Source: Hydrogenispora sp. (lineage in GTDB: Bacteria; Bacillota; UBA4882; UBA10575). From it: 64,000 nucleotides of DNA. Positions 32,512 to 37,642 of the stretch are shown here, piece by piece. The position numbers were made by a program, and so were the translations under genes. The notes under the pieces were generated by a model. The model saw only the letters and a program-made list of their open reading frames with translations. It was not told the origin of the DNA and ran no database searches. The stretch lies in contig DUQQ01000082.1 of NCBI GenBank assembly GCA_012837705.1, positions 1-64,000 of the forward strand, given 5' to 3'. The number at the start of each line of letters is the position of its first letter. Within the stretch, counting starts at the first letter, position 1.

Positions 32512-32540
32512 ATTATAAACGAGCAAGAATCGGTTGTCAA
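32512..32540 (-). promoter_or_regulatory. consensus sigma-A promoter of DUF177-rpmF
   Basis: On the - strand TTGACA, 17 bases, TATAAT: a full match to the vegetative consensus. Predicted start about 12 bases before the DUF177 ATG. Confidence 0.88.
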
Positions 32541-32576
32541 TTTAAAGAAACAAGCGGTCCGCCCATTCTTTCTTCG

Positions 32577-33245
32577 CTATTGCGCCGGGAGGAAAATACC
32601 GGCCGCCCCAATGATCCCAAGTACAATCAGTAAGATCCGGTTTGTTCTCCGCTCCTTCTCCAACTCCGTTTGGAGATTCTCCATGGCAACTTGTTGTTCT
32701 TCCTGTTTGGTTTCCAAGGTGGCCAGTCGCGTCTCCAGACGGTTTTTTTCCTCAAGGAGTTGGGCAACCTGAGTGCGGAGGGCGTTCAGCTCCGCATTTA
32801 GGGTTTGCATTCCGGCGGTGTTTTTCGTCTGGTCCTCGGCCAGGATTAAGCGGCCTTGTTCGATCTGAACCAACCTTGCTTCCAACTCCTTATTTTTCAG
32901 AGTTAAAAGCACCAGTTCGTTCTGGAATTCATTCGATAGTTTACGGAGCAAAGCCACATCATCTTGGCCCGCCCGGACGGCCCCTTCCCCAAAGTTCGTC
33001 AACAGCTTCGCCACAACCAGTGCGAAAGTGTGTCGATCAACCGGATTGTTGCCACGGAAAGTGCCATCTTCATAAAGTTCAAGGTAGCCGTTTTCCACCA
33101 GTTTTTTCACCGCTTGGTACGCCCAGTCGGGAACATCGGAGTAGGCCCGGCCTTGACCTAAGGCGGGTACCGCTACCAACAGGAAACTCAACCCCAGGAT
33201 CACCGTCTTCAACCACTTTTTACTGGTCAACCGTGATGGTGTCAA
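32577..33245 (-). CDS. SLH-domain protein with coiled coil and C-terminal membrane helix
   Basis: About 222 residues. A signal segment (WLKTVILGLSFLLVAVPALG) is followed at once by one S-layer-homology domain (YSDVPDWAYQAVKKLVENGY to DRHTFALVVAKLL), a module that binds secondary cell-wall polymer on peptidoglycan. Residues about 95-195 form a long Leu/Gln/Glu coiled coil. The end, ILLIVLGIIGAAGIFLPAQ, is a membrane helix. The likely start is TTG 33245 with AGGGGGG eight bases before it, overlapping the preceding gene by 26 bases. It is the last gene of the exbB operon. SLH plus coiled coil recalls OmpM of Negativicutes, with a helix in place of the barrel. Confidence 0.75.
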   Translation of the reverse strand: MTPSRLTSKKWLKTVILGLSFLLVAVPALGQGRAYSDVPDWAYQAVKKLVENGYLELYEDGTFRGNNPVDRHTFALVVAKLLTNFGEGAVRAGQDDVALLRKLSNEFQNELVLLTLKNKELEARLVQIEQGRLILAEDQTKNTAGMQTLNAELNALRTQVAQLLEEKNRLETRLATLETKQEEQQVAMENLQTELEKERRTNRILLIVLGIIGAAGIFLPAQ

Positions 33246-35349
33246 TCCGTACACCCCCCTGTTGATTTATGGAAATTTTTAAGCCTTCAACCTGGTAGTA
33301 AGGAATTTTCGCCACTGTACTTTGGAGTTTAAGGGCGGTCGGCACCAGCACCGCTTCGCCCGGTTCCTTACCAAGTTGAATATGGACCGTGGCCAGGGTT
33401 GCGCTGACCATCGCCGCCGTTTGCCGCTGGCCGCCGATCTGCATAACCACCCCGGTGGCGCTGTCGATCGTCCCCGGTTGCCAAGGGGTCATTGTTTGAT
33501 CCTCAATGAAGAACAACCCCCTTGATACCCTAATTATCTCCATTAACTCCGGATTATACGTTAAATCAAATTCGGCTCCGGTGAGCATCGGTAAGTTTTC
33601 AACCCGGACTTCTACCGGAAGGATCTCCCCGGCTTTCGCCGGTTTTACGGGTACTAAACGAACCTTCGGGATCAAGACCGGCAGTTGTACACCACTGATG
33701 TACATCACCGGTTTGGTCGAGTTTGATTCAAACTGAACCCCAAGGTAGGAACGTTTACCGATTCCTTCTGGTGTCAGATACCAGGTCAGCTTATATTCTT
33801 CCCCCGCTTTCAGGTTACCAATGTAACGGCGGAGAATCTCCTTCGGCGCCGGTTGCATCCCTTCTCCCAACTGCAAGCTACCGACTACGCCATAAGCCTC
33901 CGATTCCCCGGTATTTTTAATCACCGCCGTCACCGGATACGGAACCGGCACGAGTTGCTCATCCACCACTTTTAACCCCGGTGGTGGGGTAACCTTTAAG
34001 GTTAATTCGGCCGGTTTCAACACCCGAATGCTTCTTTCCACTTTGTTTTCGGGCACATTGATCGCCGAAGCCACCACCGAAAAGGGGGCGAGTGGACCGA
34101 AGACCGATCCGGTTGGCCTAACCTGCCAGTGTAACTGGGTTACTTCTCCCGGGTCCATCTTACCAATGTAAATATCGGCTGGTCTACCTCCCGCAATCCG
34201 AAGAGCCGACGGTAAATTCAACCGCGCCCGGACACTCATGGCGGGCGCTGCACCGGTATTCTGGATGTAAGCGACCACCGAGAAAGGTTCGGCATCGTCA
34301 GCGTAAACAACCTGTGCCGGTGAACTAACCCCCAATTGAAGTTGGCCCGGGACCACCGTTACCCCACCTAATCCGTAGTAGACAACATAAGTCATACTGC
34401 CGGCGGCCGGAATCGGAACCGGTTGCCAAAGGTAAACGGCGGCACTGTCTAATTCAAACTCCCCCGCCCGGGTAAAATCCCGATCCGGAACTAAAGGTGG
34501 TTCCCAGTGGTGATCGGCCACACTCCCCCAGTTTGTGAAGTAAAGGAGATCCGGGGGTGTTGCCTCTCTCCCCTTTAAGGTCCCCTGGGCAATCACCTTC
34601 GGGTCGGTCAACGTATCAAAGGCCTGCCAAAACTCGGGCAAGCGTTCTTTATCAAAGACCGCGTCCGTTTGCACCGCCGTTTCCCCGATCCGAAACGGCG
34701 CGCCGTCATTCTCTCCCAACATCGTATCGATCACAACCCGTAGCCCGATCTCGTGGGGCACCTGGTCCCGGTTCACAATGGAATACTTGATTTTGGTTGT
34801 ATCCGGATAACCGGTGGTTGTACTTTCTACGATCGAAATCTCCTGGATCACCTCGACGGCACCATAACGGCAGGTCATCGTGATACTTTGGGTCGCGCTA
34901 TCCCAGGTGGGTTTACTGACAACCGTTCCGTATTCACCGGTCCCCCCAGAACGCCGCCGCGTTTTTCCGCCAAATATGTAGTTCTTGCCATCCATCCGAA
35001 TGGTGGTGAAGGAGGTCCAAGGCATCTCATAGCCATAAATTAATGGTTTCTCCTCGTCTCCGGTCCGGAGGGGATCGCCACCGGTAACCTTAATTCCAAA
35101 CCGACCAGTAGCATCCGTAGAATTATTAACGGCCACCGCAATATATTCGTTCTCCAAAATTAAGCGTTCCGGATCCCGGTAGAGAGATTTTGGAACCCCC
35201 GGTTCGGCACTAACCCCCCCTGGATCAGCCCCATCGCTACCCGTCGCAAAAACCATTGGGCCTTGGGCCTGCAGCGTCAGGGCGGTTACGAAAAAGCTCA
35301 TACCGATTATTAAGCTAAAAAGCCATATATGCTTGCTTTTTACCTTCAA
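33220..35349 (-). CDS. large secreted protein with CARDB-like and C-terminal cohesin-like domains
   Basis: 709 residues, exported by a signal peptide (about 1-29, TLQAQG). Residues about 55-340 are a beta-rich domain I cannot name (EYIAVAVNNSTDATGRFGIK, YPDTTKIKYSIVNRDQ). Two Ig-like CARDB/NEW3-type repeats follow (about 345-450 and 455-560, each with a VVAYIQNTG or TAVIKNTG core). Residues about 565-695 resemble a cohesin fold (AGEILPVEVRVENLPMLTGAEFDLTYNPELMEI). No enzyme motif seen. It starts at the base next to the tonB stop and overlaps the SLH gene, so it is part of the exbBD-tonB operon. Confidence 0.7.
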   Translation of the reverse strand: MKVKSKHIWLFSLIIGMSFFVTALTLQAQGPMVFATGSDGADPGGVSAEPGVPKSLYRDPERLILENEYIAVAVNNSTDATGRFGIKVTGGDPLRTGDEEKPLIYGYEMPWTSFTTIRMDGKNYIFGGKTRRRSGGTGEYGTVVSKPTWDSATQSITMTCRYGAVEVIQEISIVESTTTGYPDTTKIKYSIVNRDQVPHEIGLRVVIDTMLGENDGAPFRIGETAVQTDAVFDKERLPEFWQAFDTLTDPKVIAQGTLKGREATPPDLLYFTNWGSVADHHWEPPLVPDRDFTRAGEFELDSAAVYLWQPVPIPAAGSMTYVVYYGLGGVTVVPGQLQLGVSSPAQVVYADDAEPFSVVAYIQNTGAAPAMSVRARLNLPSALRIAGGRPADIYIGKMDPGEVTQLHWQVRPTGSVFGPLAPFSVVASAINVPENKVERSIRVLKPAELTLKVTPPPGLKVVDEQLVPVPYPVTAVIKNTGESEAYGVVGSLQLGEGMQPAPKEILRRYIGNLKAGEEYKLTWYLTPEGIGKRSYLGVQFESNSTKPVMYISGVQLPVLIPKVRLVPVKPAKAGEILPVEVRVENLPMLTGAEFDLTYNPELMEIIRVSRGLFFIEDQTMTPWQPGTIDSATGVVMQIGGQRQTAAMVSATLATVHIQLGKEPGEAVLVPTALKLQSTVAKIPYYQVEGLKISINQQGGVRIDTITVDQ

Positions 35350-36183
35350 TTATGATCCTCCTTCCTCCGTTGAAAGGTAAGCTGCTTCCCCCACAGCCAC
35401 CGGTTCCACTTCATACTTGCCGTTCTCTTCATTATAAAAGTACCTGATTTCCATCTGCAGTTTATAGGGTTCAGACGCTGGTTTAAAGCGCAACTGCCCG
35501 GAAGCAATCAAACGCTGGCCATGCTCATCTAAAACACGATGACCGGAAGAAGCCAGCATCACCGGTTCTTTTAAGAAATTCCCTTCTGGGGACAGATAGA
35601 TTTCCATTAAAACCGTTCCTTCAACCCCCAGGTGTTCTGCATTTTTGGGAAAAGTAAAGCTGGGTATAAACCCAATCATCCCGCTGGCCCGCCCTAAAGG
35701 CGGTAAAACCGGCGCAGACGGTGTTTCGCTTTCGGCGGTCACTTCCCCCTCGCCATCAGTGGTCCCGTTTTCGGGTATTTCCCCCAGTTCGCTACGGTCT
35801 TCGTTGGTAGGAGAAGCTTCGAAAGCAACCTCCCCTGGTTCGGGTTGTGTTTCGCGGGGTGCTGATTTCTCCTGGTGTACTTCTTCAATTTTGGTTAAAG
35901 GTTGCTCCACCGCAGAAGCGGGTTGTTCCACCGCCGGTGTCTTTTGTGCCGGTGGTGTCGGCGGTTTGGGCGTAACTTGCGGCTTTGGCTGTTCCGCTCG
36001 CACTTCCCGCCGCACCGATTCAATCTCAACCAGACGTGGTTGAATCAAAGTATAGCCCAGTTCGTCCCCACCAGCCCCCCAGTACCCACTGGCCTGGATC
36101 ATGAAAAGGAGAGCATGCAACCCCACAGCCAGAAAAAAAGAAACCGCTTTTCTCGTCATTTCTCCGGAGCGGAGTTTATCCAT
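35350..36183 (-). CDS. tonB: TonB-like energy transducer
   Basis: 277 residues. N-terminal membrane helix KAVSFFLAVGLHALLFMIQA contains the conserved His (His23) that couples to ExbBD. Then a Pro-rich spacer first basic (EQPKPQVTPKPPTPPAQK), later very acidic, long enough to cross a periplasm. Residues about 165-250 form a TonB C-terminal domain (GVEGTVLMEIYLSPEGNF, SGQLRFKPA). AGGAGG precedes the ATG. It lies 38 bases after exbD. TonB normally drives outer-membrane receptors; none is in the window. Confidence 0.85.
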   Translation of the reverse strand: MDKLRSGEMTRKAVSFFLAVGLHALLFMIQASGYWGAGGDELGYTLIQPRLVEIESVRREVRAEQPKPQVTPKPPTPPAQKTPAVEQPASAVEQPLTKIEEVHQEKSAPRETQPEPGEVAFEASPTNEDRSELGEIPENGTTDGEGEVTAESETPSAPVLPPLGRASGMIGFIPSFTFPKNAEHLGVEGTVLMEIYLSPEGNFLKEPVMLASSGHRVLDEHGQRLIASGQLRFKPASEPYKLQMEIRYFYNEENGKYEVEPVAVGEAAYLSTEEGGS

Positions 36184-36221
36184 AACAAAAAAACCTCCTA
36201 GTGAGCACCGGTGGACAGCGC

Positions 36222-36620
36222 TTAATTTTTCTTTTCAACCGCTAAAGCCGGTTGCGCAACACCGGCGTCGGTGATCGCATCCATAACCGCAATCAATCTT
36301 CCATAAGTCACCTGGGTATCGGCATTGATCACTACTAATAAATTAGGATTCGCGGCGGCCAGCGGCGATAAACTTTCGGTAAGTTTCGATAAGGAGATCT
36401 CACGATCGTCAAAAAAGACTTTTTCTTGACGGTCAATGGTGACCATCACCCGTTCTTGCTCTAAGACCGTCGCCTGGTTAGAACTGGGTAATTCCAACGG
36501 AATCCCAGAAACCGAGGTTCGAAAGGTCGTAAAAACCATGAAAAAGAGCACGAGATAGAACATGACATCAATCATCGGGACAATATCCAAACGGGGTATT
36601 TCCGACTTACGTTGAAACAT
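36222..36620 (-). CDS. exbD: ExbD/TolR proton-channel subunit
   Basis: 132 residues. The single membrane helix carries the essential proton-carrying Asp in DIVPMIDVMFYLVLFFMVF (Asp18, equivalent to E. coli ExbD Asp25). A periplasmic domain follows (VVINADTQVTYGRLIAVMDAI). ATG 36620 has GAGGTG nine bases upstream and lies four bases after the exbB stop; the frame is open further upstream, inside exbB. Confidence 0.92.
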   Translation of the reverse strand: MFQRKSEIPRLDIVPMIDVMFYLVLFFMVFTTFRTSVSGIPLELPSSNQATVLEQERVMVTIDRQEKVFFDDREISLSKLTESLSPLAAANPNLLVVINADTQVTYGRLIAVMDAITDAGVAQPALAVEKKN

Positions 36621-36624
36621 GATG

Positions 36625-37236
36625 CTATTCACCTCGGTTCCCGTAGTTGTCAAGAAACTCCTTACCCATTTGGTTCATCATCTGGATCCGCTTCTCGATG
36701 ATCGCGTTGAACCAATGCACGATAAAGAGGGCGGGAATGGCAATGATTAACCCGAAAGCCGTTGTCAACAAAGCTTCGGCAATCCCCCCACTCAACTGTG
36801 CCGGTGAAGCCACGCCTTGTAATGCTTCTAAGACGTTGAGGCTACTGATGATCCCCGTCACCGTTCCTAGCAAACCAAGCAGCGGAGAAGCGGTGATAAT
36901 GACATTAAGCAGACCTAAGCCCCGTTCCATCTTGCGAATCTCCACTTCACCCGCTTCACGTAGCGAAACCTCCACTTCGAGTCGGGTTTTACCGTAATGA
37001 AGTAAAGCGGCCTGGTACATCCGCGCCACCGGCTGGTTTAATTTTTGTAAATATTGAATGGCTTCTAGAGGAGCATTCTTCTCCATCAGGCGGAAAACAA
37101 TTCGTCTGATCTCATCGATGTCCCCGCGCTGACTGACAAAAAACCAAAGTCGTTCAATGGTAATCGCCATGACCATTATCGAGCAGAATAACAAAGGAAA
37201 CATGACCGGACCGCCACTTAAGAACAATTGCCACAT
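36625..37236 (-). CDS. exbB: ExbB/TolQ/MotA-family proton-channel subunit
   Basis: 203 residues, three membrane helices (about 10-32, 108-132, 152-176). The family core ASPLLGLLGTVTGIISSL (Thr125, Thr127) and SGGIAEALLTTAFGLIIAIPAL (Thr158/159) is intact. With ExbD it forms the proton-driven motor powering TonB. ATG with GGGGGAG upstream. First gene of a five-gene - strand unit; TolQ cannot be excluded, but the adjacent TonB and absence of TolA/TolB favour ExbB. Confidence 0.93.
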   Translation of the reverse strand: MWQLFLSGGPVMFPLLFCSIMVMAITIERLWFFVSQRGDIDEIRRIVFRLMEKNAPLEAIQYLQKLNQPVARMYQAALLHYGKTRLEVEVSLREAGEVEIRKMERGLGLLNVIITASPLLGLLGTVTGIISSLNVLEALQGVASPAQLSGGIAEALLTTAFGLIIAIPALFIVHWFNAIIEKRIQMMNQMGKEFLDNYGNRGE

Positions 37237-37544: not shown

Positions 37545-37583
37545 GGCAAAAAAAGAAAAAAGAGCGGAGGACTTCCTCCGCTC
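37545..37583 (-). terminator. intrinsic terminator of the GH2 operon
   Basis: Stem GAGCGGAGGA/TCCTCCGCTC with a 2-base loop plus flanking unpaired bases, followed on the - strand by TTTTTTCTTTTTTT. Confidence 0.9.
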
Positions 37584-37642
37584 CCAATATGATCATTTGC
37601 GAACAAACTTTTATTTGCAGCTGTTCTATATCTCCGTGTTTT

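Follow-up and report, generated by a model that had tools for sequence, protein, structure and literature searches.

The closest described counterparts of the five-gene cassette considered here are the Tol-Pal and Ton systems and the SLH proteins that tether outer membranes. The core tol-pal gene order is tolQ, tolR, tolA, tolB, pal (PMC7391070), and a 2025 survey reports Tol-Pal only in the Gracilicutes and, among diderm Firmicutes, Ton systems only in the Negativicutes, with additional outer-membrane-stabilising systems to be expected (PMC12204202); atypical diderms that lack tolB and pal have also been reported (PMC8871954). ExbB, ExbD and TonB were noted together, in the absence of receptors, in Halothermothrix orenii (Halanaerobiales), and their function was left open (PMC2626281). 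The Omp-alpha protein of Thermotoga (OmpA1) is composed of an N-terminal SLH domain, a long coiled coil and about 20 hydrophobic residues at its C-terminus (PMC3387000). The cassette lies on the minus strand at positions 32577–37236 of a 64,000 bp stretch of Hydrogenispora sp. DNA (contig DUQQ01000082.1 of assembly GCA_012837705.1; the window), and contains exbB, exbD and tonB, followed by genes for an exported beta protein of 709 amino acids (the 709 protein) and for an SLH coiled-coil protein. Only the first three genes were noted in H. orenii, whereas five form the cassette, and in the literature searched we found no paper that describes the unit of five genes, although an earlier description may exist in subscription papers.

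The first-pass annotation had proposed a five-gene operon in this region, and all five open reading frames (ORFs) are found where it placed them. The exbB and exbD genes overlap by 29 bp, exbD and tonB are separated by 38 bp, tonB and the 709 gene abut with a gap of 0 bp, and the 709 and SLH genes overlap by 35 bp if the GTG start of the latter is used; a pattern scan found no promoter-like sites on the coding strand inside the five-gene stretch. The first-pass annotation had also suggested looking for the same order in other Firmicutes, and the last two genes do stay linked to the first three. Among 29 genomes representing 16 genera of the window organism's class, the 709 family is present in every one, and its gene always follows exbB-exbD-tonB and precedes the SLH gene where contigs allow (29/29; at loci L053, L056 and L030 a divergent tonB gene was recognised by direct reading). 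A profile scan of genome contigs recovered 189 relatives of the 709 family, the best 80 of which come from Limnochordia-type metagenome-assembled genomes and from Halanaerobiales (Halanaerobium, Halanaerobacter, Frackibacter and Halobacteroidaceae). The five-gene order is kept at all 80 of these loci, 68 of them complete (67 by script, plus L118, where the start of the TonB ORF was misplaced) and 12 cut by contig ends, with median intergenic distances of -4 to 17 bp. The flanks vary, with yceD in the window's family and spoVAC-type, CheW-like, NDK-like and Hydrolase_2 peptidoglycan hydrolase genes elsewhere (the CheW-like and NDK-like labels were assigned by eye). Because the order is constant while the flanks differ, the five genes are the unit, and the linkage of the 709 and SLH genes to exbB-exbD-tonB is not incidental. 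We note that a Hydrolase_2 (cell wall hydrolase) gene comes next after the cassette in Halanaerobium, Halanaerobacter and related loci (L095:12708-13292, L102:12602-13210, L131, L139, L129 and L099), where it is a possible sixth member; this neighbour favors the tethering role proposed below.

The distribution of the cassette falls within that of the outer membrane. In a sample of 300 Bacillota genomes, with BamA (PF01103) as outer membrane marker and the Plug domain as receptor marker, a full-length homologue of the 709 protein is present in 68 of the 78 BamA-bearing genomes and in none of the 222 BamA-negative ones (Fisher 4e-57, a descriptive value that ignores relatedness); the window genome itself carries BamA. 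The cassette is missing from ten BamA-positive genomes of three families (f31, f61 and f72), which we take, without a check by name, to be Negativicutes; most of these genomes have TonB receptors, up to 15 each. This restriction to outer-membrane-bearing Bacillota, and the resemblance of the layout to tol-pal, both go beyond the first-pass annotation.

We propose, with a probability of roughly one half, that the cassette encodes a dedicated trans-envelope machine of outer-membrane-bearing Bacillota, driven by the proton motive force, which tethers the outer membrane to peptidoglycan much as Tol-Pal does. In such a machine the inner-membrane ExbB-ExbD motor would convert proton flow into movement of TonB, whose C-terminal domain would cross the periplasm and pull on the exported 709 protein, in a role like that of TolB. 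The 709 protein would then engage or release the SLH rod, the counterpart of Pal, which would bind peptidoglycan through its SLH domain and be held by its C-terminal helix, probably in the outer membrane. The outcome would be active positioning and tightening of the links between outer membrane and wall, for example at division. We infer both contacts, of TonB with the 709 protein and of the latter with the rod, as well as the membrane in which the rod sits and a function in division or stability.

Several likenesses to Tol-Pal favor this proposal. First, the order of two motor genes, a transducer, an exported beta protein and a wall-binding envelope protein matches. Secondly, the transducer has a membrane histidine and a C-terminal domain of the TonB/TolA type. 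Thirdly, the cassette is confined to cells with an outer membrane and is independent of TonB receptors. The fourth and fifth proteins differ, however: the fourth combines a supersandwich domain with Ig-like domains and is not a TolB, with its TolB_N domain and six-bladed propeller, and the fifth is a rod with SLH domain, coiled coil and terminal helix, whereas Pal is a lipoprotein with an OmpA domain. TolB_N was found in none of the 300 Bacillota genomes, and a Pal was likewise not found in the window genome, whose sole OmpA-domain protein is a MotB encoded beside MotA. Because homology to TolB and Pal fails, we do not regard the cassette as a member of Tol-Pal; the claim is that it would work like one.

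The key residues of the motor are intact. The exbB/tolQ-like proton-channel subunit (36625–37236, 203 amino acids; Pfam MotA_ExbB 1.1e-29) retains the equivalents of the pore residues Thr148 and Thr181 (73/73), and the exbD/tolR-like subunit (36222–36653, 143 amino acids; Pfam ExbD 5e-30) retains the proton-carrying aspartate equivalent to Asp25 (73/73), which in the window protein is Asp29 from the TTG start or Asp18 from an internal ATG. The TonB-type force transducer (35350–36183, 277 amino acids) has an N-terminal transmembrane segment with His23, a proline-rich linker and a TonB_C domain (Pfam 1.9e-7); the membrane histidine is present in 71 of 75 cases, and the four exceptions are truncated or mis-started ORFs. 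The intact Asp18, His23 and ExbB threonines pointed out in the first-pass annotation are thus conserved throughout the family. In families and residues alike (ExbB, ExbD and TonB_C; Asp, Thr and His) the cassette proteins match a Ton system; the difference is that the cassette adds two always-linked genes, usually comes without a receptor, and is accompanied by a separate receptor-linked TonB where receptors occur. The cassette ExbB matches both solved ExbB and solved TolQ structures. In an ExbB tree the cassette and receptor-linked copies are largely separate, and the cassette copies do not form one clean clade; the tree, in which the Escherichia coli ExbB and TolQ group on one long branch, does not discriminate TolQ from ExbB.

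The 709 protein (33220–35349) consists of a signal peptide, a supersandwich domain (residues ~57–340), Ig-like CARDB/NEW3 domains and a C-terminal cohesin-like domain. Pfam matches CARDB (7.7e-6) and, just under the cut-off, Cohesin (4.8e-5), and the cohesin-like domain is clear in the Halanaerobacter homologue (5.7e-13). Structure prediction of the protein alone, as suggested in the first-pass annotation, gave an AlphaFold2 model of supersandwich and Ig-like domains with a mean predicted local distance difference test score of 88.7 and a predicted template modelling score (pTM) of 0.80. The strongly conserved core is the N-terminal domain of about 280 residues (34324–35181), which has a galactose-mutarotase-like supersandwich fold and reaches a pTM of 0.88 when modelled alone. 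It matches no Pfam family, and is apparently a domain family that has no Pfam entry. Foldseek searches with this domain returned the N-domains of GH94 and GH116, aldose epimerases/mutarotase and the periplasmic domain of YidC at modest TM-scores of ~0.5; the full-length model gave generic multi-Ig matches only, and the 709 profile found only weak cohesin matches among the sequences of solved structures. The CARDB and cohesin-like domains of the first-pass annotation are therefore present, but its cohesin scaffold was an overreading, since the cohesin-like part is a fold, the conserved core is the supersandwich, and no Pfam dockerin match was seen among the cassette proteins, to which the dockerin search was confined. 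N-domains of the 709 type also open giant exported surface proteins of the RHS-repeat, RCC1 and SLH kinds in Bacillota that lack BamA (L181:2954-9172, L183:3030-7490, L184:3571-10308, L185:7111-14853 and L186).

These domains raise the alternative that the motor drives the handling of surface glycan, lipopolysaccharide or exported proteins, with the mutarotase-like domain binding a glycan that is moved through or onto the outer membrane and the SLH rod serving as wall anchor. The supersandwich fold is common among carbohydrate-active proteins, glycan-active proteins often contain NEW3/CARDB and cohesin-like domains, and the giant surface proteins just mentioned would fit as well. However, the fold does not prove sugar binding because the YidC periplasmic domain shares it, and in the class genomes and locus flanks examined the cassette has no conserved outer-membrane channel or glycan gene as a neighbour. 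We consider this alternative unlikely, though it survives better than the others.

The fifth protein (32577–33254, 225 amino acids; Pfam SLH 1e-7) has a signal peptide, a single SLH domain of the OmpM/SlpA type, a coiled coil and a C-terminal hydrophobic helix, the same layout as Omp-alpha. Its closest solved structures are Veillonella OmpM (5e-13) and Deinococcus SlpA (3e-10), tether-type proteins that likewise combine SLH with a coiled coil; these carry a beta-barrel (C-terminal and 16-stranded in OmpM), whereas the C-terminus of the cassette protein is a single helix. The helix is found in 69 of 77 homologues, the remainder being truncated or borderline, and no lipobox cysteine was seen in the window protein. 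By architecture the protein is thus a tether-type SLH protein, and the peptidoglycan anchor of the first-pass annotation is borne out as an outer membrane-peptidoglycan tether layout. Omp-alpha differs in having no known linked motor cassette, and neither TonB_C nor ExbD was found in the Thermotoga maritima control genome. Length ranges from about 200 to 1447 amino acids, with a highly variable coiled coil and rods of ~120 to >1300 residues; the longest protein (L111:11936-16279, coiled coil of ~1300 residues) possibly forms a very long rod. The window genome encodes a second Omp-alpha-like protein (contig C2, L214:1423-2028; 201 amino acids) with signal peptide, single SLH domain, coiled coil and C-terminal hydrophobic helix and no link to a motor, and an SLH search found no SLH-barrel OmpM in that genome.

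The rod could instead belong to an assembly anchored in the inner membrane, where it would serve as a stator that ties ExbBD-TonB to the wall, much as MotB does for the flagellar motor. Almost no residues follow the C-terminal helix, a topology that fits either membrane, and the coupling of the SLH gene to the motor genes is absolute. The proteins closest to the rod in sequence and layout (OmpM, SlpA and Omp-alpha) are nevertheless outer-membrane tethers (PMC3387000, PMC10628300), and so wide a range of rod lengths would be odd for a fixed motor clamp. We regard a stator as improbable, a little more so than glycan handling.

An ordinary Ton system, in which the motor energises receptors encoded elsewhere with the 709 and SLH proteins as accessories for substrate binding or anchoring, ranks marginally below the stator. 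The first-pass annotation stated that no TonB receptor is encoded here, which is true within the window, but contig C83 of the same genome (L178:212-3032) encodes a TonB-dependent receptor of 608 amino acids beside a second, better-scoring TonB, and no exbB or exbD is present there. No ExbD other than that of the cassette was found in the window genome, so that the cassette motor probably serves both TonBs, and import too; the window genus appears to have lost its second motor and to share that of the cassette. Across the sample, however, the cassette does not follow receptors. Of the 68 cassette genomes, 23 have Plug domains, usually a single one, and none is detectable in the other 45, counts to be read with the caution that divergent receptors may escape Pfam and that draft genomes are incomplete. 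TonB_C never exceeds one copy in the 45 Plug-free genomes (one in 34 and none at threshold in 11); two copies are found in 17 of the 23 genomes with Plug, and three copies in one of them. Because a second TonB_C occurs only alongside Plug, it is the extra TonB that tracks receptors, not that of the cassette. In addition, the receptor-linked ExbBs are mostly on separate branches, and the receptor-bearing, BamA-positive families f31, f61 and f72 do without the cassette. A device for sporulation or engulfment in spore-forming diderms is very improbable, for although the first-pass annotation called the host a spore former and some cassettes adjoin spoVAC-type genes, the cassette is kept in Halanaerobium (L095, L129 and L131), a genus not known to sporulate, and its flanks vary.

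Several observations count against a tether working like Tol-Pal. The 709 protein has no TolB propeller in the AlphaFold2 and Foldseek results, no TolB_N and no homology to TolB, and the SLH protein has none to Pal. The C-terminal helix of the rod could sit in the inner membrane, and some class members have other OmpA-domain proteins. A conserved N-terminal TonB/TolA box on the 709 protein was sought and is absent outside the window's family, where the mature protein begins straight at its first domain. A Tol origin of the motor was likewise dropped: the cassette proteins score higher with the NCBIfam models of TolQ/TolR than with those of ExbB/ExbD, yet below both cut-offs, and the higher TolQ score is no evidence for Tol because the receptor-linked ExbB/ExbD proteins of relatives show the same preference.

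The borders of the cassette are marked by sequence patterns on the minus strand. A terminator-like hairpin with 11 pairs and a T tail (37560–37585) separates exbB from an upstream sugar operon (GH2), and a second terminator-like hairpin (32548–32568) lies directly 3' of the SLH gene. Between the SLH gene and yceD-rpmF-plsX is a promoter-like site that matches the sigma-70 consensus perfectly (TTGACA-17-TATAAT; 32512–32540, 12/12), which marks the cassette end. The called TTG start of yceD (32526) falls within this site, and the true start is therefore probably further downstream.

An outer membrane has to be actively coupled to the wall, and a working tether of this type would also address the question of function left open for H. 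orenii since 2009. Somewhat more tentatively, and at a little less than even odds, diderm Bacillota outside the Negativicutes may have their own equivalent of Tol-Pal, built on the same families of motor and transducer, with TolB and Pal replaced by an unrelated beta protein and an SLH rod, in which case energised tethering either arose twice or predates the Pal-type system of the Gracilicutes. The absence of the cassette from every sampled BamA-negative genome bears on the loss of the outer membrane in Firmicutes. If the proposal is correct, the cassette, near-universal in diderm Bacillota other than Negativicutes, would be a concrete candidate for how these bacteria energise the tethering of their outer membranes.

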